The notes beneath the pieces are model-generated. The model was given only the letters and a program-made list of their open reading frames with translations. It was not told the origin of the DNA and made no database searches. Below are positions 14,518 to 20,369 of a stretch of DNA of 33,633 nt, piece by piece. A program made the translations under genes and the position numbers. This DNA comes from Lachnospiraceae bacterium. GTDB lineage: Bacteria; Bacillota; Clostridia; Lachnospirales; Lachnospiraceae. Location of the stretch: assembly GCA_017428265.1 (NCBI GenBank), contig JAFRRD010000007.1:1-33633 (forward strand), given 5' to 3'. Every line of letters starts with the position of its first letter. The stretch's first letter is position 1.

Positions 14518-16722
14518 TCAATTGACCGGAATCGGCTGCGGTTCTTCAACTGAGGCAAAATACGGTGCAAGCATCGGCAGAAGGGAGACGTCTGCACAGA
14601 AAAACGTGTGCAGCGAGCATCGCTGACTGCTGCTTCCGTCAGTCTCCAAAAGCGGAGCAAGAAGCCTTATCTCGGTCAAAGTCTGGCTCGGATCCAGCGG
14701 ACTTGTGCTTGCCTCGCGCAGGTATTCTGCCACTTCAGCAAGAATGGCTTCAGCCGGATCAGAATGATTGATCAGCCATGTCCCATTGGCATTAGAAAAG
14801 GTGACACGCTTGCTGTCAGATCCTTCTTCCGGCCGGCAGATGCTGAGGATAATGCCGTATTCCGTGCTTCCCTTGATCGGAAAACGTGACAAACGCTCGA
14901 GCTGCGTCAAACAAAGAGGACGGAACCGTTGGGCATTCTGTTCCCGTGCCTCCCAGAGCGCATTCCACAGCGCAGGAAAATGCGGAGTGACCGGAAGCAT
15001 CAAACGCTTTGTTTCGCCATTTGCTTGAAATTGAATCGAAAAGTATTCCGAAGCAGACTCATCATTCGCGACTTCCCCTTTGAGAAGGTGATACCAGTCG
15101 CTATCCGATACGGTGTCTGCATCCTTCAGCAGTGCCAGATACAGGGGCGGCAGCATTTTTCTGCTGATTTCTGTGGCATCCAGTGTTAAGCGCGGATCAT
15201 CTGCGTCCGGGAAAGCTTTATAACAGCGCATATATGTTTCGTTTTGTGACAATTCTTCTATTAGCTTTTGATAATTTTCCTCCGAGGCAAAAATCTTACG
15301 ATAATGGTCTTTCCCATTTACGCGGACAGCGACCTTCAGAAAAATACCGCCGTGCATGTAATTATCGTTGTTTGGGTCAGCATCCAATATCGTTTGGAGC
15401 CCTTCTGCACAGACCTGTTTAAGAAAGGGAGACTGGAGCGGTACCTGCGCTGTTTCTTCCAGGAAAAACGCATCGGTGTCATCCTCCAAATGGCTGGCAG
15501 TCCCCAGATAACGGACAGATTCGATTTCTTCGGCGGCAGGCCGAAAACGGTTGACAGCCGAGCCGGCAAGCAGCGGGATCCCAATAAACAGCAGGTCCAT
15601 GACGAGAAGAATGGGCACTGACCTTAATGCATTTTTCAGAGAGCTCAGTTTTCTGCTTGAGACCAGTTGATAGAGCGAAAGTACCAGAACAGCCAGAAGG
15701 AAGATCGGCAGCACAAGGCGCCACAAGCTTACAGTATAGGAAGTTCTTTGAACCAGGACTTCAATAAGCGAAAGCAGTGTTTTCAGACTGATCAGAAAAG
15801 CCAGCAGTAAGCCGATGACGGAATTGATCAGCGGTGAGACTGCCGGGAGTTCTGCTGTTTCGCTGCGGCGGCGTACAAAAAGGAAAGAGGCAAGGAGTGC
15901 CCATATCATTGCCAGACCGACCGTATACCATTGAATTGATGCATAAAGGAGATTGTCCAGTCCGGGCGGATTTTCCGGCGTGTTGGTGTAGGCAGGCGCA
16001 TATTTCTGGAGAGTCATCAATAAATTCTGGAAAACCACACCGGGCATGTGAAAACGGGAGTCGATCAGGAAGAAAGTGTGATCGCGCAACAGGCCTTTGC
16101 TTGCGGAGAAAACCCCCTGCGCAAGATAGTGCAGAATCAGACGCGGGGCAAAAACAAACAGAAGTGCAGTAACAACCGAGGTAAAAAGGGTCCCGCACAG
16201 GGCGGCGGCACAGGCTGCAGCAGCGCTGACGTAAAGGCTCATGCAAAAGGATCCCACAGCGAATCGGAACAGTTCCATCCAGCTGAAACTGATAAAACCG
16301 GGTCTTATCCAGGCAACGCAGATACCGGAAAGCAGGGAACTGCCAAAAATCAGAAGCGCGAGGCAGGTCCATACGGCGGCCAGAAAACTGCCGTACAGAC
16401 AGAGCCTGTTCTGCGGCACCGCATGATAATAATCACTGCCTTTTTGGCTGTTCAGAAAGGAAAAGACCCGGAATGTCAGCAGCGGGGCGATGAAGAGACA
16501 CAAATGCGGCAGATAGGGATGCAGAGTGACGGCAGTCATGTAACTCGGCAGATATTCAGCTCTCAGCTCAGGGGTGTTGAACATAGTTGTCCAGATACTG
16601 ATGATATGCAGGGAAGGATAGCATGCAGAAAAGAGCAGAGGCAGTAAGCTGAAAATGACGAAAGAACGCAGCTGCCGCAGAGCTTCCGTGTACAGCCTGA
16701 GGTCAAACACTTTTTTCTTCAT
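14518..16722 (-). CDS. ABC transporter permease with multiple TM helices and large C-terminal soluble domain
   Basis: 734 aa from ATG 16722, chosen because AAGGAGG lies directly before it; an in-frame ATG at 16752 lies inside the ATPase gene and lacks that support. Residues about 20-390 hold roughly ten hydrophobic segments (ABC-2-like), including a DYYHAVPQNR loop like those of permeases paired with YtrB-type ATPases. About 400-734 is a soluble, mixed-charge region of unknown fold, probably exposed outside. It overlaps the ATPase gene by 20 nt and completes a GntR-ATPase-permease unit. Relatives are often linked to cell-wall antibiotic or peptide stress; the substrate is unknown. Base composition is more AT-rich than in neighbouring genes. 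Confidence 0.8.
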   Translation of the reverse strand: MKKKVFDLRLYTEALRQLRSFVIFSLLPLLFSACYPSLHIISIWTTMFNTPELRAEYLPSYMTAVTLHPYLPHLCLFIAPLLTFRVFSFLNSQKGSDYYHAVPQNRLCLYGSFLAAVWTCLALLIFGSSLLSGICVAWIRPGFISFSWMELFRFAVGSFCMSLYVSAAAACAAALCGTLFTSVVTALLFVFAPRLILHYLAQGVFSASKGLLRDHTFFLIDSRFHMPGVVFQNLLMTLQKYAPAYTNTPENPPGLDNLLYASIQWYTVGLAMIWALLASFLFVRRRSETAELPAVSPLINSVIGLLLAFLISLKTLLSLIEVLVQRTSYTVSLWRLVLPIFLLAVLVLSLYQLVSSRKLSSLKNALRSVPILLVMDLLFIGIPLLAGSAVNRFRPAAEEIESVRYLGTASHLEDDTDAFFLEETAQVPLQSPFLKQVCAEGLQTILDADPNNDNYMHGGIFLKVAVRVNGKDHYRKIFASEENYQKLIEELSQNETYMRCYKAFPDADDPRLTLDATEISRKMLPPLYLALLKDADTVSDSDWYHLLKGEVANDESASEYFSIQFQANGETKRLMLPVTPHFPALWNALWEAREQNAQRFRPLCLTQLERLSRFPIKGSTEYGIILSICRPEEGSDSKRVTFSNANGTWLINHSDPAEAILAEVAEYLREASTSPLDPSQTLTEIRLLAPLLETDGSSSQRCSLHTFFCADVSLLPMLAPYFASVEEPQPIPVN

Positions 16723-17632
16723 TTTTTGCCTCCTTCTCCAGCACGTCTTCAAAAGAATAGCCGAGTTCTTTCATTTCGTAGGTAAAGATTTCTTCCAGAT
16801 TCAGAGGAAGTACATCCAGCAGGACGGGATCAAGCTGCTTTAATCGGGACAGGATCTCGTATTTGTCGCCGCGCAGGATCAGCTGGGCAACGCCGCCGTT
16901 TATCCGGCAGTTCTCGACCTGAAGCGAAGAAAAAAGTCCTTCATTGAAAGGACGGTCGAAGGCAATCTGCACCTTGAACAGAGAGGTTCTTAAGTCCTGT
17001 ATGTTGCTCTGCAGGATGAGGCCGCCCTTATGAAGGAGAGCAAGCTGATCGCAGCTGTCCTCCAATTCCCGCAGAGAGTGGGATGTGATGATGGCGGTCG
17101 CGTTTTTATCCGCCACGTCCTCATTGATCAGGCCTTTGACAAGCCGGCGCATCACCGGATCCAGTCCGTCAAAGGTTTCGTCGAAAAAGTAGTAGTCCGG
17201 TCTGCAGGAGAGAGCAAGCAAGGTGGCGGACTGCCGCCGCATTCCTTTGGAAAAACCGTGGATCAGACGCTTTTCGTCCAAATTGAAAGCGTTTGTCAGA
17301 AAATGGAAACGTTCTTCGTCAAAATGCGGGAAAAAACTCCGATAGAAGACGGCCATGCGTGTAAGGGTCGATCCCGGCAGGAAAAATAATTCGTCCGGAA
17401 CAAAGACCAGACGGGCTTTGACGGCAGGATTGTCAAAGACCGGGGCCCCGTCAATGGTGACAAGACCTCCGTCAGGCTTGTAAACGCCGCTGAGCAGCCG
17501 CAGAAAGGTGGACTTCCCGGCACCGTTGGATCCAACCATGCCGTAAACTGAGCCTTCCTCAATACGGCAGCTGATATTCTTCAAAGCTGTAATGCTGCCG
17601 AATCGTTTGACAGCTTGCTGTACCTGGATCAT
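16703..17632 (-). CDS. ABC transporter ATP-binding protein (YtrB-like)
   Basis: Energises the permease encoded downstream. Walker A GSNGAGKST is at residues 34-42, signature FSKGMRRQ at 127-134, Walker B YYFFDE at 147-152 and the switch histidine in ITSHS. The Q-loop position reads VFVPDE rather than containing Gln, as often seen in this ABC-2 subfamily. At 309 aa it has a C-terminal extension of about 90 residues. GAGGAGG precedes the ATG, and the GntR gene stops 2 nt upstream, so the three genes are tightly coupled. Confidence 0.92.
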   Translation of the reverse strand: MIQVQQAVKRFGSITALKNISCRIEEGSVYGMVGSNGAGKSTFLRLLSGVYKPDGGLVTIDGAPVFDNPAVKARLVFVPDELFFLPGSTLTRMAVFYRSFFPHFDEERFHFLTNAFNLDEKRLIHGFSKGMRRQSATLLALSCRPDYYFFDETFDGLDPVMRRLVKGLINEDVADKNATAIITSHSLRELEDSCDQLALLHKGGLILQSNIQDLRTSLFKVQIAFDRPFNEGLFSSLQVENCRINGGVAQLILRGDKYEILSRLKQLDPVLLDVLPLNLEEIFTYEMKELGYSFEDVLEKEAKNEEKSV

Positions 17633-17634
17633 GA

Positions 17635-18012
17635 TCAGGCCTCCTCTTTATTCGCATAGAGTTTATGAAGGCTTTTTTCAACGGCCGAAAGAGGAATACC
17701 GAAACTGATCATCTGACGGACGGTTTCTTCAAAACGGGCCATCTGACGGGTCCGAAGCCCGAAAAGGAAGGAACTGATATCCTGGCGGATGAAGCAGCCC
17801 TTTCCGGCTGCGGAGACAATGAGTTCGCGGCGGTCCAGCTCCGAATAGGCTTTCTGAATGGTGTTGGGATTGATGCCTAATGTGATGGAGAGGGTGCGGA
17901 CGGACGGCAGCGCATCGCCCGGCTTTAACACTTCGCGGGCAACCAGCTGCTCAGCCTGTGTGATAATCTGTTCATAGACCGGCGTACGGGAAAGGGAATC
18001 AATTTGAAACAT
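17635..18012 (-). CDS. GntR-family transcriptional regulator, YtrA subfamily
   Basis: 125 aa from ATG 18012 (AAGGAG upstream); the longer open frame to 18138 crosses the promoter. Residues about 10-75 are the GntR winged helix (PVYEQI, PSVRTLSITLGINPNTIQKAYSELDRRELI split over the HTH). The short C-terminal part of about 45 residues lacks a large effector-binding domain, which defines the YtrA subfamily. It leads the ABC operon and should repress it through the operator at 18048-18070. Effectors of the subfamily are mostly unknown; cell-wall-active peptides induce some. Confidence 0.9.
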   Translation of the reverse strand: MFQIDSLSRTPVYEQIITQAEQLVAREVLKPGDALPSVRTLSITLGINPNTIQKAYSELDRRELIVSAAGKGCFIRQDISSFLFGLRTRQMARFEETVRQMISFGIPLSAVEKSLHKLYANKEEA

Positions 18013-18047
18013 GCAAGACTCCTTTTTGACATTCAGCACTTGACTGT

Positions 18048-18070
18048 GTGTATTAGTTGTATTAGTACAC
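18048..18070 (-). promoter_or_regulatory. Likely GntR (YtrA-type) operator
   Basis: A 23-bp element whose ends form an inverted repeat (GTGTA and TACAC); on the minus strand it contains two head-to-tail copies of ACTAATACA. It lies just downstream of the -10 box, over the predicted transcription start of the GntR-ABC operon, as expected for an autorepressor site. Confidence 0.65.
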
Positions 18071-18072
18071 AT

Positions 18073-18101
18073 ATAATATCGTGCTGTGCAGATGTTGTCA
18101 A
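18073..18101 (-). promoter_or_regulatory. Promoter of the GntR-ABC operon
   Basis: Minus strand consensus TTGACA (18101-18096), 17-nt spacer, TATTAT (18078-18073). It is among the strongest-looking promoters in the window, which fits control by a repressor. Confidence 0.8.
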
Positions 18102-18114
18102 GGGGTGCCGGCCG

Positions 18115-18162
18115 AAAAAAAAGGATGCGAAAAAGCAAACGACAGGCTTTTTCACATCCTTT
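18115..18162 (-). terminator. Rho-independent terminator after the serpin gene
   Basis: A long stem, 18120-18136 with 18146-18162 (one mismatch), with an unpaired loop of 9 nt; on the minus strand it is followed by eight T (A run at 18115-18122). It insulates the sigma/serpin unit from the GntR-ABC operon. Confidence 0.85.
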
Positions 18163-18180: not shown

Positions 18181-19698
18181 TCACGGCTGGTTGACGATGC
18201 CGGCGTAGAGCGGCAGGTCGTCCGCGCTCGTCAGCAGGAAAAGGAAGGGGCGGTTGAAGATGAGCGTGACTTCATCCGGGATGGCCGCCTTGCTGTCAGC
18301 TCTCCCGAAGGTAAAGGAAACGGCCCGGACGCCTTCTTCGTTCGCAATCAGGCGGGAGGCCTGCCTGAGTTCGCCGAGGTAAGCGCCCTCGTTCGAAATC
18401 CCTGAAAAATCGGCGACGCCTGGGGAAAATACTTTATCAAGGCCGAGCCGCCGGAAGCTTTCCTTCAGGTCGTTTTCCGCGGTAATGTCGAAACGCGGCA
18501 GGGTCAGGTGAACCTTGACGGGCTTCCAGGCAAGGCCTTCGCCGATCTCGCCCCAGCCCGCCCGGTATTGCTGCTGAATGAGCGTTCGGACAAAGGTTCG
18601 GCAGGTCTCATTCTGCAGTAGTTCTTCAGGTGTAAAGCCGCCTGTGCCGCCGTTCGGTAGGATCAGCCACATCCTCATGCCGCCGCCCATTTTGACGGAA
18701 ACTGCCTGAAAACTGTCGCCCAGAACATAAGTGGTGCTTTCGATATCCTGGTACATATAGGTGACGTCCCGCTTCCCGTCCGGAGCATTAAACGTGCCGG
18801 GGTGGGAATCAATCTTCTTGAATCCATCCCATTTGACGTCCAGGTTTATAGCGGAGACTACGGCCACCACGGTATTGGGCGTCATGGAGACGCCGTTCGT
18901 ATAGCGGCCGTCCAGCAGGCCGTCGGTCGCTTCTTTGATCCAGGTGCGGAGCGCCTTGTTGTATCCCTCGGAGCCCATTTCGCCGCGGAAGGAAGAGGCA
19001 AAGTAGGTTTCGGCCAGCGTTTTCACGGTGTCTTCCCGGTAGGAAAGTGCCTTTGACAGCCAGAGCGAATTGGCAAGGACGCTTTTTGCCTCGTGCGTAT
19101 AGAGTGAATTCGCGAGGTAAATCGACGAGGCCTGCTTCCGCAGCGTTTCAATGCTGTCCGCGCCGAGCAGCTGCAGGATCTCTTCGCGGCTTTCACCGCC
19201 GGCGCATTCCGCGAGCATCGCCAGGGCCATATAACTGTTCAGGGGAGAGTAGACGCGGTTCGCGTGGTTTCCTTCCGTTTCCGTGCCGCCCAGGATCTCT
19301 GCCATACTGTCCGTGAAGAAATCAGCAAGCGTGATGCCGCAGCCCTTGGCCTCGCCGGCTTTCTGCAGATCGTCCGCGGACCGGCTTCTTTCCGGGTGTT
19401 CGGCTTCTCCGAGGGCATAGGCCTTCATAACCAGCCCGCTCCGGATATGGAAGGTCCCGTCCAGAATGACGGCGAGCGCGAGCACGGAAAGTATAGGCAC
19501 CGCTATTCTTAAGAACTTATGTTTCTGGAAAGCGCCGGCGACGGCGCCGAGGAGCCCTCTGATCCTTTTTCCAAGTCTTTTCTTCTCCGCTGCCGGAGCG
19601 CTCTCGCCAAGCGCGTCCCACGCTTTTTCCGGCGCGGCAGCTTCGACGAGCTGCATATCGACGCCGTTCAGGGCGTCTGAAATATCCATCTTATTCAT
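18181..19698 (-). CDS. Membrane-anchored serpin, putative anti-sigma factor fusion
   Basis: 505 aa. Residues 1-61 are a basic, cytoplasm-like segment; 62-80 one TM helix (LRIAVPILSVLALAVIL); about 115-505 a serpin domain on the outside. Serpin marks: VYSPLNSYMALAMLAECAGG (149-168), NSLW, and the C-terminal RPFLFLL with the final beta-strand YAGIVNQP. The reactive-centre loop runs from Gly456; counting against alpha-1-antitrypsin puts P1-P1' at Lys470-Ala471. The hinge (GVRAVSFTFG) lacks the small-residue run of inhibitory serpins. The start at 19698 is chosen for GGAGGAGG 9 nt upstream; it overlaps the ECF sigma stop by 8 nt. Gene order and topology suggest an anti-sigma role for the N-terminus, with the serpin as sensor; this is inference. 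A plain surface protease inhibitor is the alternative. Confidence 0.85.
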   Translation of the reverse strand: MNKMDISDALNGVDMQLVEAAAPEKAWDALGESAPAAEKKRLGKRIRGLLGAVAGAFQKHKFLRIAVPILSVLALAVILDGTFHIRSGLVMKAYALGEAEHPERSRSADDLQKAGEAKGCGITLADFFTDSMAEILGGTETEGNHANRVYSPLNSYMALAMLAECAGGESREEILQLLGADSIETLRKQASSIYLANSLYTHEAKSVLANSLWLSKALSYREDTVKTLAETYFASSFRGEMGSEGYNKALRTWIKEATDGLLDGRYTNGVSMTPNTVVAVVSAINLDVKWDGFKKIDSHPGTFNAPDGKRDVTYMYQDIESTTYVLGDSFQAVSVKMGGGMRMWLILPNGGTGGFTPEELLQNETCRTFVRTLIQQQYRAGWGEIGEGLAWKPVKVHLTLPRFDITAENDLKESFRRLGLDKVFSPGVADFSGISNEGAYLGELRQASRLIANEEGVRAVSFTFGRADSKAAIPDEVTLIFNRPFLFLLTSADDLPLYAGIVNQP

Positions 19699-20248
19699 GC
19701 CACAGATCCTCCTCCTGAAGGAAATGCCAAAGTTTGTTCCGCGTGCGTTCGAGGCGCATCTTGACGCTGCCTTCGCTCGCGCGCAGTTCGGCCGCGATCT
19801 CACGGATGGGGCAGGCGTACCAGTAGCGAAGCAGAAAGACGCGGCGGTCCTTCTCCTTCAGCGTCTTCAGAAAACGGTCCAGCGCCTCCCGCAGAGCCAC
19901 CTCGTCGGCGATGGCGTTTTCGGAACCGTCCGGCAGAACGTCCTCCAGTTCTTCCAGGCTCTGCTCGTACGCTTCCGTAAGCTTCCGCTTCGGATCCTTC
20001 CGCCGTTTGTCGACGGCGATCTGGCGGGAGAGCATGCCGAGATAGGAGCGAAGCGACGCCGGCTTCGCCGGCGGGACCGTCCGCCAGAGCTTCAGCAGCA
20101 CGTCGTTCTCCACCTCCTCGACGTCTGCCGGATCCGCCAGGATCTGCCCCGCGATATAACGGCAGTAGGCGCCGTATTTTTCTCTGATGCTGCCGACCGC
20201 ATCTTCGGAACGCTCAAGGAGCGCCGCGATCAATGCTTTGTCATCCAT
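19691..20248 (-). CDS. ECF-type RNA polymerase sigma factor
   Basis: 185 aa from ATG 20248. Sigma region 2 spans about 20-85 (ADVEEVENDVLLKLWR, then a YLGMLSRQIAVDKRRK segment) and region 4 about 120-180 (RRVFLLRYWYACPIREIAAE, then the recognition helix SEGSVKMRLERTRNKL). There are no large accessory domains. An in-frame ATG at 20314 would add 22 residues containing a hairpin-coding segment; the shorter start matches family length, with a modest GAGCAGG site. The serpin gene follows with an 8-bp overlap, the usual position of an anti-sigma gene. The regulon is unknown. Confidence 0.9.
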   Translation of the reverse strand: MDDKALIAALLERSEDAVGSIREKYGAYCRYIAGQILADPADVEEVENDVLLKLWRTVPPAKPASLRSYLGMLSRQIAVDKRRKDPKRKLTEAYEQSLEELEDVLPDGSENAIADEVALREALDRFLKTLKEKDRRVFLLRYWYACPIREIAAELRASEGSVKMRLERTRNKLWHFLQEEDLWHE

Positions 20249-20291: not shown

Positions 20292-20369
20292 CTGTTCCAA
20301 AGGCCTTCACCCATAGAAACGAAGCCCGAAGGAGAAAAGTAACATTTTATGGAACATTTCTTTTCTGTC

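Follow-up and report, generated by a model that had tools for sequence, protein, structure and literature searches.

Why should a serpin, anchored in the membrane of a Lachnospiraceae bacterium, be encoded directly behind the gene of an extracytoplasmic function (ECF) sigma factor? The two genes lie in a 33,633-bp stretch of contig JAFRRD010000007.1 (hereafter the window). An earlier note on this DNA had proposed that they form a protease-sensing signalling system, with the membrane protein as anti-sigma factor and its serpin as extracytoplasmic sensor. The features of the locus are as follows.

20315..20344, minus strand: candidate ECF-like promoter, TGTTAC, 17-bp spacer, CGTTTC(T), then TATGGGTGAAGG; a footprint common to the upstream regions of related sigma genes
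19691..20248, minus strand: ECF sigma factor gene, 185 aa, regions 2 and 4, from profile matches
18181..19698, minus strand: one-TM membrane protein with serpin, 505 aa, candidate anti-sigma factor, overlapping the sigma gene by 8 bp
19516..19698, minus strand: cytoplasmic segment, residues 1-61, with a putative class-I sigma-partner module in the first ~24 residues, then an unusually long basic stretch
19459..19515, minus strand: transmembrane (TM) helix, about residues 62-80, predicted by hydropathy (helix start 62-64)
19279..19458, minus strand: extracytoplasmic linker, residues 81-140, with AYA at 93-95
18184..19278, minus strand: serpin domain, residues 141-505 (PF00079)
18289..18339, minus strand: predicted reactive-centre loop, P17 Glu454 to P1 Lys470, EEGVRAVSFTFGRADSK, with P1 placed by the canonical 17-residue spacing

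Organization of the gene pair and topology of the membrane protein

The deduced sigma protein (gene 20248..19691) matches the Pfam profiles Sigma70_r2 and Sigma70_r4 and TIGR02937, all above cut-off; it has regions 2 and 4 without region 3, and its length falls within the 150-200 aa expected of an ECF sigma factor. Its 3' partner, the serpin gene (19698..18181), overlaps it by 8 bp, ATGAATAA. The hydrophobic helix of the serpin protein starts at residue 62-64, so the 61-residue cytoplasmic segment holds, and profiles and hydropathy agree with the layout given in the earlier note (8-bp overlap, 61-residue segment, one TM helix, serpin). The segment lacks cysteine, the first Cys of the protein being residue 120. 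A comparison with PHROGs gave no match. Downstream of the serpin gene and on the same strand, positions 14518-18138 of the window hold genes named by eye as a GntR-type regulator, an ABC ATPase and a large membrane protein.

Net charge is higher before the helix than after it in 78 of the 79 linked proteins, i.e., those encoded behind an ECF gene (means +5.1 and about 0, respectively), which supports an N-in orientation. The linked proteins carry 23-71 residues ahead of the TM helix, with an overall median of 35, L035 and its duplicate row excepted. Unlinked serpins mostly begin with a signal peptide or lipobox; a loose lipobox pattern fits 56 of 70 of them but also 15 of 81 linked rows, and cannot by itself separate the two classes. 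An AxA motif that might be cut by signal peptidase follows the TM helix in 56/79 linked and 31/70 unlinked proteins and, among proteins with a YP motif, in 43/53 and 13/22, respectively; commoner in linked proteins yet not specific to them, it was not taken as evidence of site 1.

Recurrence and distribution of ECF-serpin pairs

The genome to which the window belongs (2.16 Mb, 52 contigs) yielded eight serpin matches, four of which, including that of the window, lie directly behind an ECF gene (L004, L005, L006 and L007); the binomial chance of such a coincidence is ~2e-7, with 15 sigma matches above cut-off and 2000 genes assumed. In a sample of 150 genomes of the same family, one per genus and our own included, serpins were present in 62. 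The linkage counts leave out two short pieces, G051 and G097, as well as L027 (G106), which showed no sigma gene and whose domain was not delimited. At least one linked serpin ORF was found in 13 of 59 same-family genomes (own included), and the 96 serpin ORFs of these 59 genomes comprised 20 linked and 49 unlinked ORFs, 14 behind another serpin, seven fragments and six with too little upstream DNA. The best 80 of 366 named relatives contributed 91 serpin ORFs (60 linked, 21 unlinked, eight tandem and two without data), in a sample biased to linked serpins because the query profile was itself sigma-linked; L163, the same contig as L060, is counted twice among the linked rows.

The named relatives are labelled as Lachnospiraceae, Oscillospiraceae and other Clostridia and include many gut or rumen MAGs and a few isolates. 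The closest of them, L111 (Lachnospiraceae Tb.RUG.433), has 62% identity and an overlap of the same 8-bp length; most often, in 56 of the 81 linked rows, the sigma and serpin genes overlap by 4 bp. In a phylum-wide sample of 249 genomes, 17 besides our own matched at E<=1e-50, and two of these 17 were linked, namely L241 and L242, labelled as the same phylum but another class, in each of which the sigma gene overlaps the serpin ORF. The adjacency on which the earlier note had staked its proposal is thus conserved, in other genera and in two genomes labelled as other classes.

Several loci depart from the simple pair. One of the 20 linked serpins, L035, is a secreted-looking protein whose gene lies between the sigma gene and that of another serpin, anchored in the membrane; in the region of this locus (L231, serpin ORFs from 1397 and 2927) the ECF gene is followed by the secreted-looking serpin and then by the membrane serpin with a sigma-partner N-terminus, an order which suggests that sensor and soluble trap are produced together. 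Two ECF-serpin pairs per locus occur in L156 and L116, and one of the L156 serpins is without a recognisable hinge. An ECF-linked serpin with a different-looking N-terminus (L013:700-2850, minus strand) is followed within its polypeptide by BspA-type leucine-rich repeats. At L071:597-7676, five tandem lipoprotein-like serpins are encoded without a sigma gene, forming with L070 a long separate branch.

A probable sigma-partner module shared with other ectodomains

A profile built from the linked N-termini (A2) found, in the window's own genome, four non-serpin membrane proteins, L080, L081, L082 and L083, each encoded directly behind an ECF gene. No Pfam family scored above cut-off in these four one-TM proteins, whose ectodomains would be sensors as yet without a name. 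A wider profile (A4), which includes the window row, had matches in 33 of 40 family genomes at E<=0.01, the weakest of them covering mainly the helix; at E<=1e-5 the 40 genomes gave 31 matches, seven on serpins and 24 on other proteins. Directly behind an ECF gene stand 21 of these 24 non-serpin carriers, with four in the window's own genome counting L083, found by A2; in the other three (G003:C6:65981, G009:C54 and G003:C32) no ECF gene was found directly upstream. The locus L264:195-4199 has two consecutive ECF genes, and behind each of them a module-bearing non-serpin protein is encoded. The N-terminal similarity to other ECF-linked membrane proteins that the earlier note had thought worth seeking therefore exists, as related segments on other ectodomains behind ECF genes.

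The window protein itself is a weak member of this group, unreported by A2 at E<=1 and with a best-domain E of 0.08 to 0.5 on A4 without the window row, because its basic stretch is ~30 residues longer. When scored with a position matrix from which the window, L111 and L129 had been left out, its first 24 residues reached 19.5; the second-highest score among 703 start positions of the window was 6.6, and the training rows themselves averaged 29.6, with a minimum of 3.4. Its probable membership of the module thus rests on these 24 residues and on the relatives L111 and L129.

Among the matches listed, no named anti-sigma family of Pfam or NCBIfam scored above cut-off on the module. Sub-threshold matches to the NCBIfam 'antisigma' and 'CU044_5270' families and to RsiV fall mostly on the basic stretch and the TM helix, and a named anti-sigma family for the cytoplasmic segment was dropped for that reason. 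Compared with PDB sequences, the segment had no sensible match up to E 10.

Co-variation with the sigma factor and phylogeny

In a Mantel comparison of 62 pairs, sigma distance correlated with the distance of the partner's first 32 residues with r 0.62 (0.585 given the serpin; permutation p 0.0005) and with serpin distance with r 0.33 (partial 0.235 given the N-terminus); the remaining 17 of the 79 pairs had been set aside in advance because the sigma belonged to another class or was truncated or misparsed, or because the serpin was the secreted L035. Since the N-terminus co-varies with the sigma factor more than the serpin does, it is the short module that follows the sigma factor and the serpin that is more exchangeable. 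This fits an anti-sigma segment with a swappable sensor, a pattern that co-inherited adjacent DNA would also produce in part.

On the serpin tree (170 rows) the linked/unlinked label requires 23 changes, at least 13 of them forced by starred branches; none of 500 label shuffles was as low (mean 49.6), and the label as placed on this tree is clustered but was switched often. On the sigma tree (95 rows: 79 with serpin partners and 16 non-serpin loci that were chosen, not sampled) partner type changes ten times, with at least six changes forced by starred branches. Eleven serpin-linked sigmas do not belong to the main clade of 84, and the partners of several of them have different-looking N-termini (the L121/L128 group, L013/L050/L230, L063 and L005). 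As far as these branchings go, serpins have been joined to several sigma lineages. Both trees were made with FastTree only; for the serpin tree, fragments, ORFs with too little upstream DNA, near-identical rows and duplicates were dropped.

Serpin domain and reactive-centre loop

PF00079 matches the window protein with an E-value of 5e-45 and 155 bits (cut-off 27), over profile positions 16-370 of 370, and the nearest solved sequences are conserpin 6ee5 (E 3.5e-21) and tengpin 2vh4 and 2pef. In the alignment of 79 linked domains, P15 is Gly and P12 is Ala or Gly in all 79, P8 is Thr in 72, and P10 and P11 are each Ala in 70, while at P14 Val or Cys predominates and at P9 Tyr or Phe. The hinge consensus of inhibitory serpins reads E-E/K-G-T-x-A/G/S (P12-P9)-T, and the linked serpins deviate from it at P14 and P9. 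The aligned linked loops nonetheless keep much of an inhibitor-type hinge. In the window protein, with V-R-A-V-S-F-T, the EEG of P17-P15, the P12 Ala and the P8 Thr are kept, and Val at P14, Val at P11, Ser at P10 and Phe at P9 are found; furthermore, Gln446 stands where 64 of the 79 linked rows have His. As this hinge is less canonical than most, protease inhibition by the window serpin is rated only as likely.

P1 as placed by the 17-residue rule in 75 parsed loops (of 78) is Ala in 30, Gly in 16, Ser in 11, Thr in six, Lys in three and another residue in nine; it is thus small (Ala, Gly, Ser or Thr) in 63 of 75. The window protein and its closest relative L111 have Lys. Lys470 suggests a trypsin-like attacker for the window serpin, and the small P1 of most relatives suggests elastase- or subtilisin-like proteases; the trypsin-like specificity foreseen in the earlier note would thus apply to the window protein and L111 but not to most relatives.

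At the shutter positions, window residues 154 and 282, which we take to be equivalent to S56 and N186 of alpha-1-antitrypsin, the 170 domains carry mainly Ser/Asn (57), Asn/Ser (54) or Asn/Thr (39), the two residues changing together as if swapped.

A candidate promoter of the operon

The candidate promoter of the window, TGTTAC-N17-CGTTTC at 20344..20316, has an exact match once in the whole genome, before its own operon. Its -10 extension is also unique in the genome at <=2 mismatches; a backwards control pattern likewise gave a single match. A wider regulon, sought genome-wide with the window promoter, came down to the own operon, and with one promoter match in the genome no wider regulon is in sight. 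Among upstream regions of related genes, a first pattern, fixed before the alignments were seen, was weak (5/70, 1.7 expected). Pattern A was found in 21 of 71 linked regions (shuffle mean 1.8) and in 3 of 70 unlinked ones, and pattern B in 13 of 71 (shuffle mean 0.1) and 0 of 70, respectively; both were drawn up after inspection of 20 upstream regions and are no independent test. These patterns, tuned on the present data, suggest that the sigma operon may be autoregulated through its ECF-like promoter.

Comparison with known systems

The SigV-RsiV systems of Bacillus subtilis, C. difficile and E. faecalis likewise pair an ECF sigma factor with a one-TM partner, RsiV, whose ectodomain serves as the receptor for a host enzyme and at the same time inhibits it; according to the available parts of PMC4183432 and PMC5014341, this anti-sigma factor binds and inhibits lysozyme and is then cut by signal peptidase and RasP. 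The RsiV ectodomain consists of DUF4163/DUF3298 and is directed to lysozyme, whereas here it is a serpin with no Pfam match to those domains. By analogy, RsiV would offer the closest mechanism to the proposed serpin system.

SigI is not known as an ECF sigma factor. Several sigma/anti-sigma pairs per genome that sense different substrates are also known from SigI-RsgI of Clostridium thermocellum (PMC12203970, in the part available), but the RsgI cues are cellulosome substrates, and here the partner is an ECF sigma factor. The Pfam family RsgI_N had no match in P0001 or in the nine proteins scanned.

Class I anti-sigma domains, such as those of RsiW, RseA, RskA and ChrR, bind ECF sigma factors from the membrane or the cytoplasm. 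They average about 101 aa and often contain Hx3Cx2C, as stated in the accessible text of PMC7406223, in contrast to the median of 35 residues before the TM helix and the Cys-free 61-residue segment of the window protein. Neither the Hx3Cx2C motif nor a domain of about 100 aa is present here. The ectodomain of CnrY differs from a serpin. In class II, the two-helix segment of CnrY wraps round the ECF sigma factor (PMC7406223, same text), and among PDB matches up to E 10 there was none to CnrY. By sequence, then, the window protein is not RsiV, RsgI or a class I zinc domain.

The serpins of gut bacteria (siropins, miropin and the B. longum serpin; groups T and U) have the same fold and likewise come from host-associated bacteria, but in the available portion of PMC8233489 they are discussed as inhibitors, without a sigma or operon link. 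No such link appears in the text of PMC8233489, PMC8201313, PMC5127057 or PMC6718151, where 'sigma' is a supplier's name and 'operon' occurs nowhere. Searches by title and abstract start, in literature with few subscription papers, found no described serpin anti-sigma factor, in keeping with the earlier note. The ECF-serpin architecture is real and recurrent and, as far as the literature was searched, undescribed.

Proposed mechanism and alternatives

The membrane protein is encoded directly behind, and co-inherited with, its sigma factor, as expected of an anti-sigma factor, and on these sequence grounds it is likely, with high confidence, that the two form an anti-sigma pair. Of the anti-sigma and sensor reading put forward earlier, the recurrent unit and the interchangeable sigma-partner N-terminus that co-varies with the sigma factor stand; binding of the sigma factor, protease inhibition and protease-triggered release are steps that we infer. 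That proteases are the cue of the pair is less certain, with the balance tipping in their favour. We lean to a similar degree towards a modular one-TM anti-sigma factor that carries a serpin as extracytoplasmic sensor and would work in the manner of RsiV. The short cytoplasmic segment would hold the sigma factor at the membrane until the reactive loop comes under attack by an external serine or cysteine protease; insertion of the loop, whether or not the protease is trapped, would alter the ectodomain and lead to a site-1 cut near the membrane by an enzyme of the signal peptidase or PrsW type. By analogy with RsiV, a single M50 site-2 protease would then free the cytoplasmic segment and with it the sigma factor, which would transcribe its own operon and yield more sensor; the extra sensor protein may double as a surface inhibitor. 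Genes for one M50 site-2 protease and two PrsW proteases are present in the window's genome.

The serpin could instead be the output of the circuit, a surface protease shield made by the ECF sigma factor, with the module controlling the sigma factor and envelope stress or something else as the signal. Such a role would suit the related serpins without sigma genes, which are mostly lipoprotein-like, plain surface inhibitors by the loose lipobox count given above, as well as the sole genomic promoter match before the own operon and the pairing of a secreted with a membrane serpin in L035/L231. However, other ectodomains on the same module occupy the same slot, as expected for a sensor position, and serpins entered this slot repeatedly, on different sigma lineages; we regard a mere output as unlikely. 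A chance neighbourhood, in which the membrane protein is functionally unrelated to the sigma factor, is scarcely credible in view of recurrence, gene overlap, module sharing and co-variation.

Two further alternatives concern what the serpin perceives. The fold might be a non-inhibitory conformational sensor of heat, pH or a ligand, like non-inhibitory eukaryotic serpins; Val or Cys at P14 and an aromatic P9 are unusual for inhibitors by the consensus above, and the window protein deviates further (Val, Ser and Phe at P11-P9, and Gln446), but nearly all linked rows retain Gly at P15 and a small residue at both P12 and P10, and P5-P2' is more variable, as in inhibitors selected by different proteases, which makes this very unlikely. 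It is quite unlikely that the loop is bait for a protease of the cell itself or of a neighbour, not of the host, so that the circuit reports endogenous or community proteolysis: the preponderance of Ala, Gly, Ser or Thr at P1 also fits subtilisin- or elastase-like bacterial enzymes, and a serpin of C. thermocellum inhibits subtilisin (PMC6718151, in the part available), yet this alternative differs from the best explanation solely in the source of the protease.

Implications for gut and rumen Clostridia

Returning to the serpin as sensor of an RsiV-like anti-sigma factor, gut and rumen Clostridia might, on an even balance, possess sets of membrane-anchored serpin receptors that differ in bait loop, each coupled to an ECF sigma factor of its own. 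Such cells would read nearby proteases by the irreversible springing of a trap, an arrangement that could, with equal weight for and against, have arisen several times on different anti-sigma modules. We know of no serpin signalling receptor in bacteria before this one, which, if the reading is true, would be the first. The data also point to a group of ECF-linked one-TM proteins, here without a Pfam or NCBIfam name, with interchangeable sensors. The wiring of a serpin to a sigma factor would give the serpin a concrete role and connect the proteases of gut and rumen with gene regulation in bacteria, and the pair would offer a natural, modular protease-to-transcription switch.
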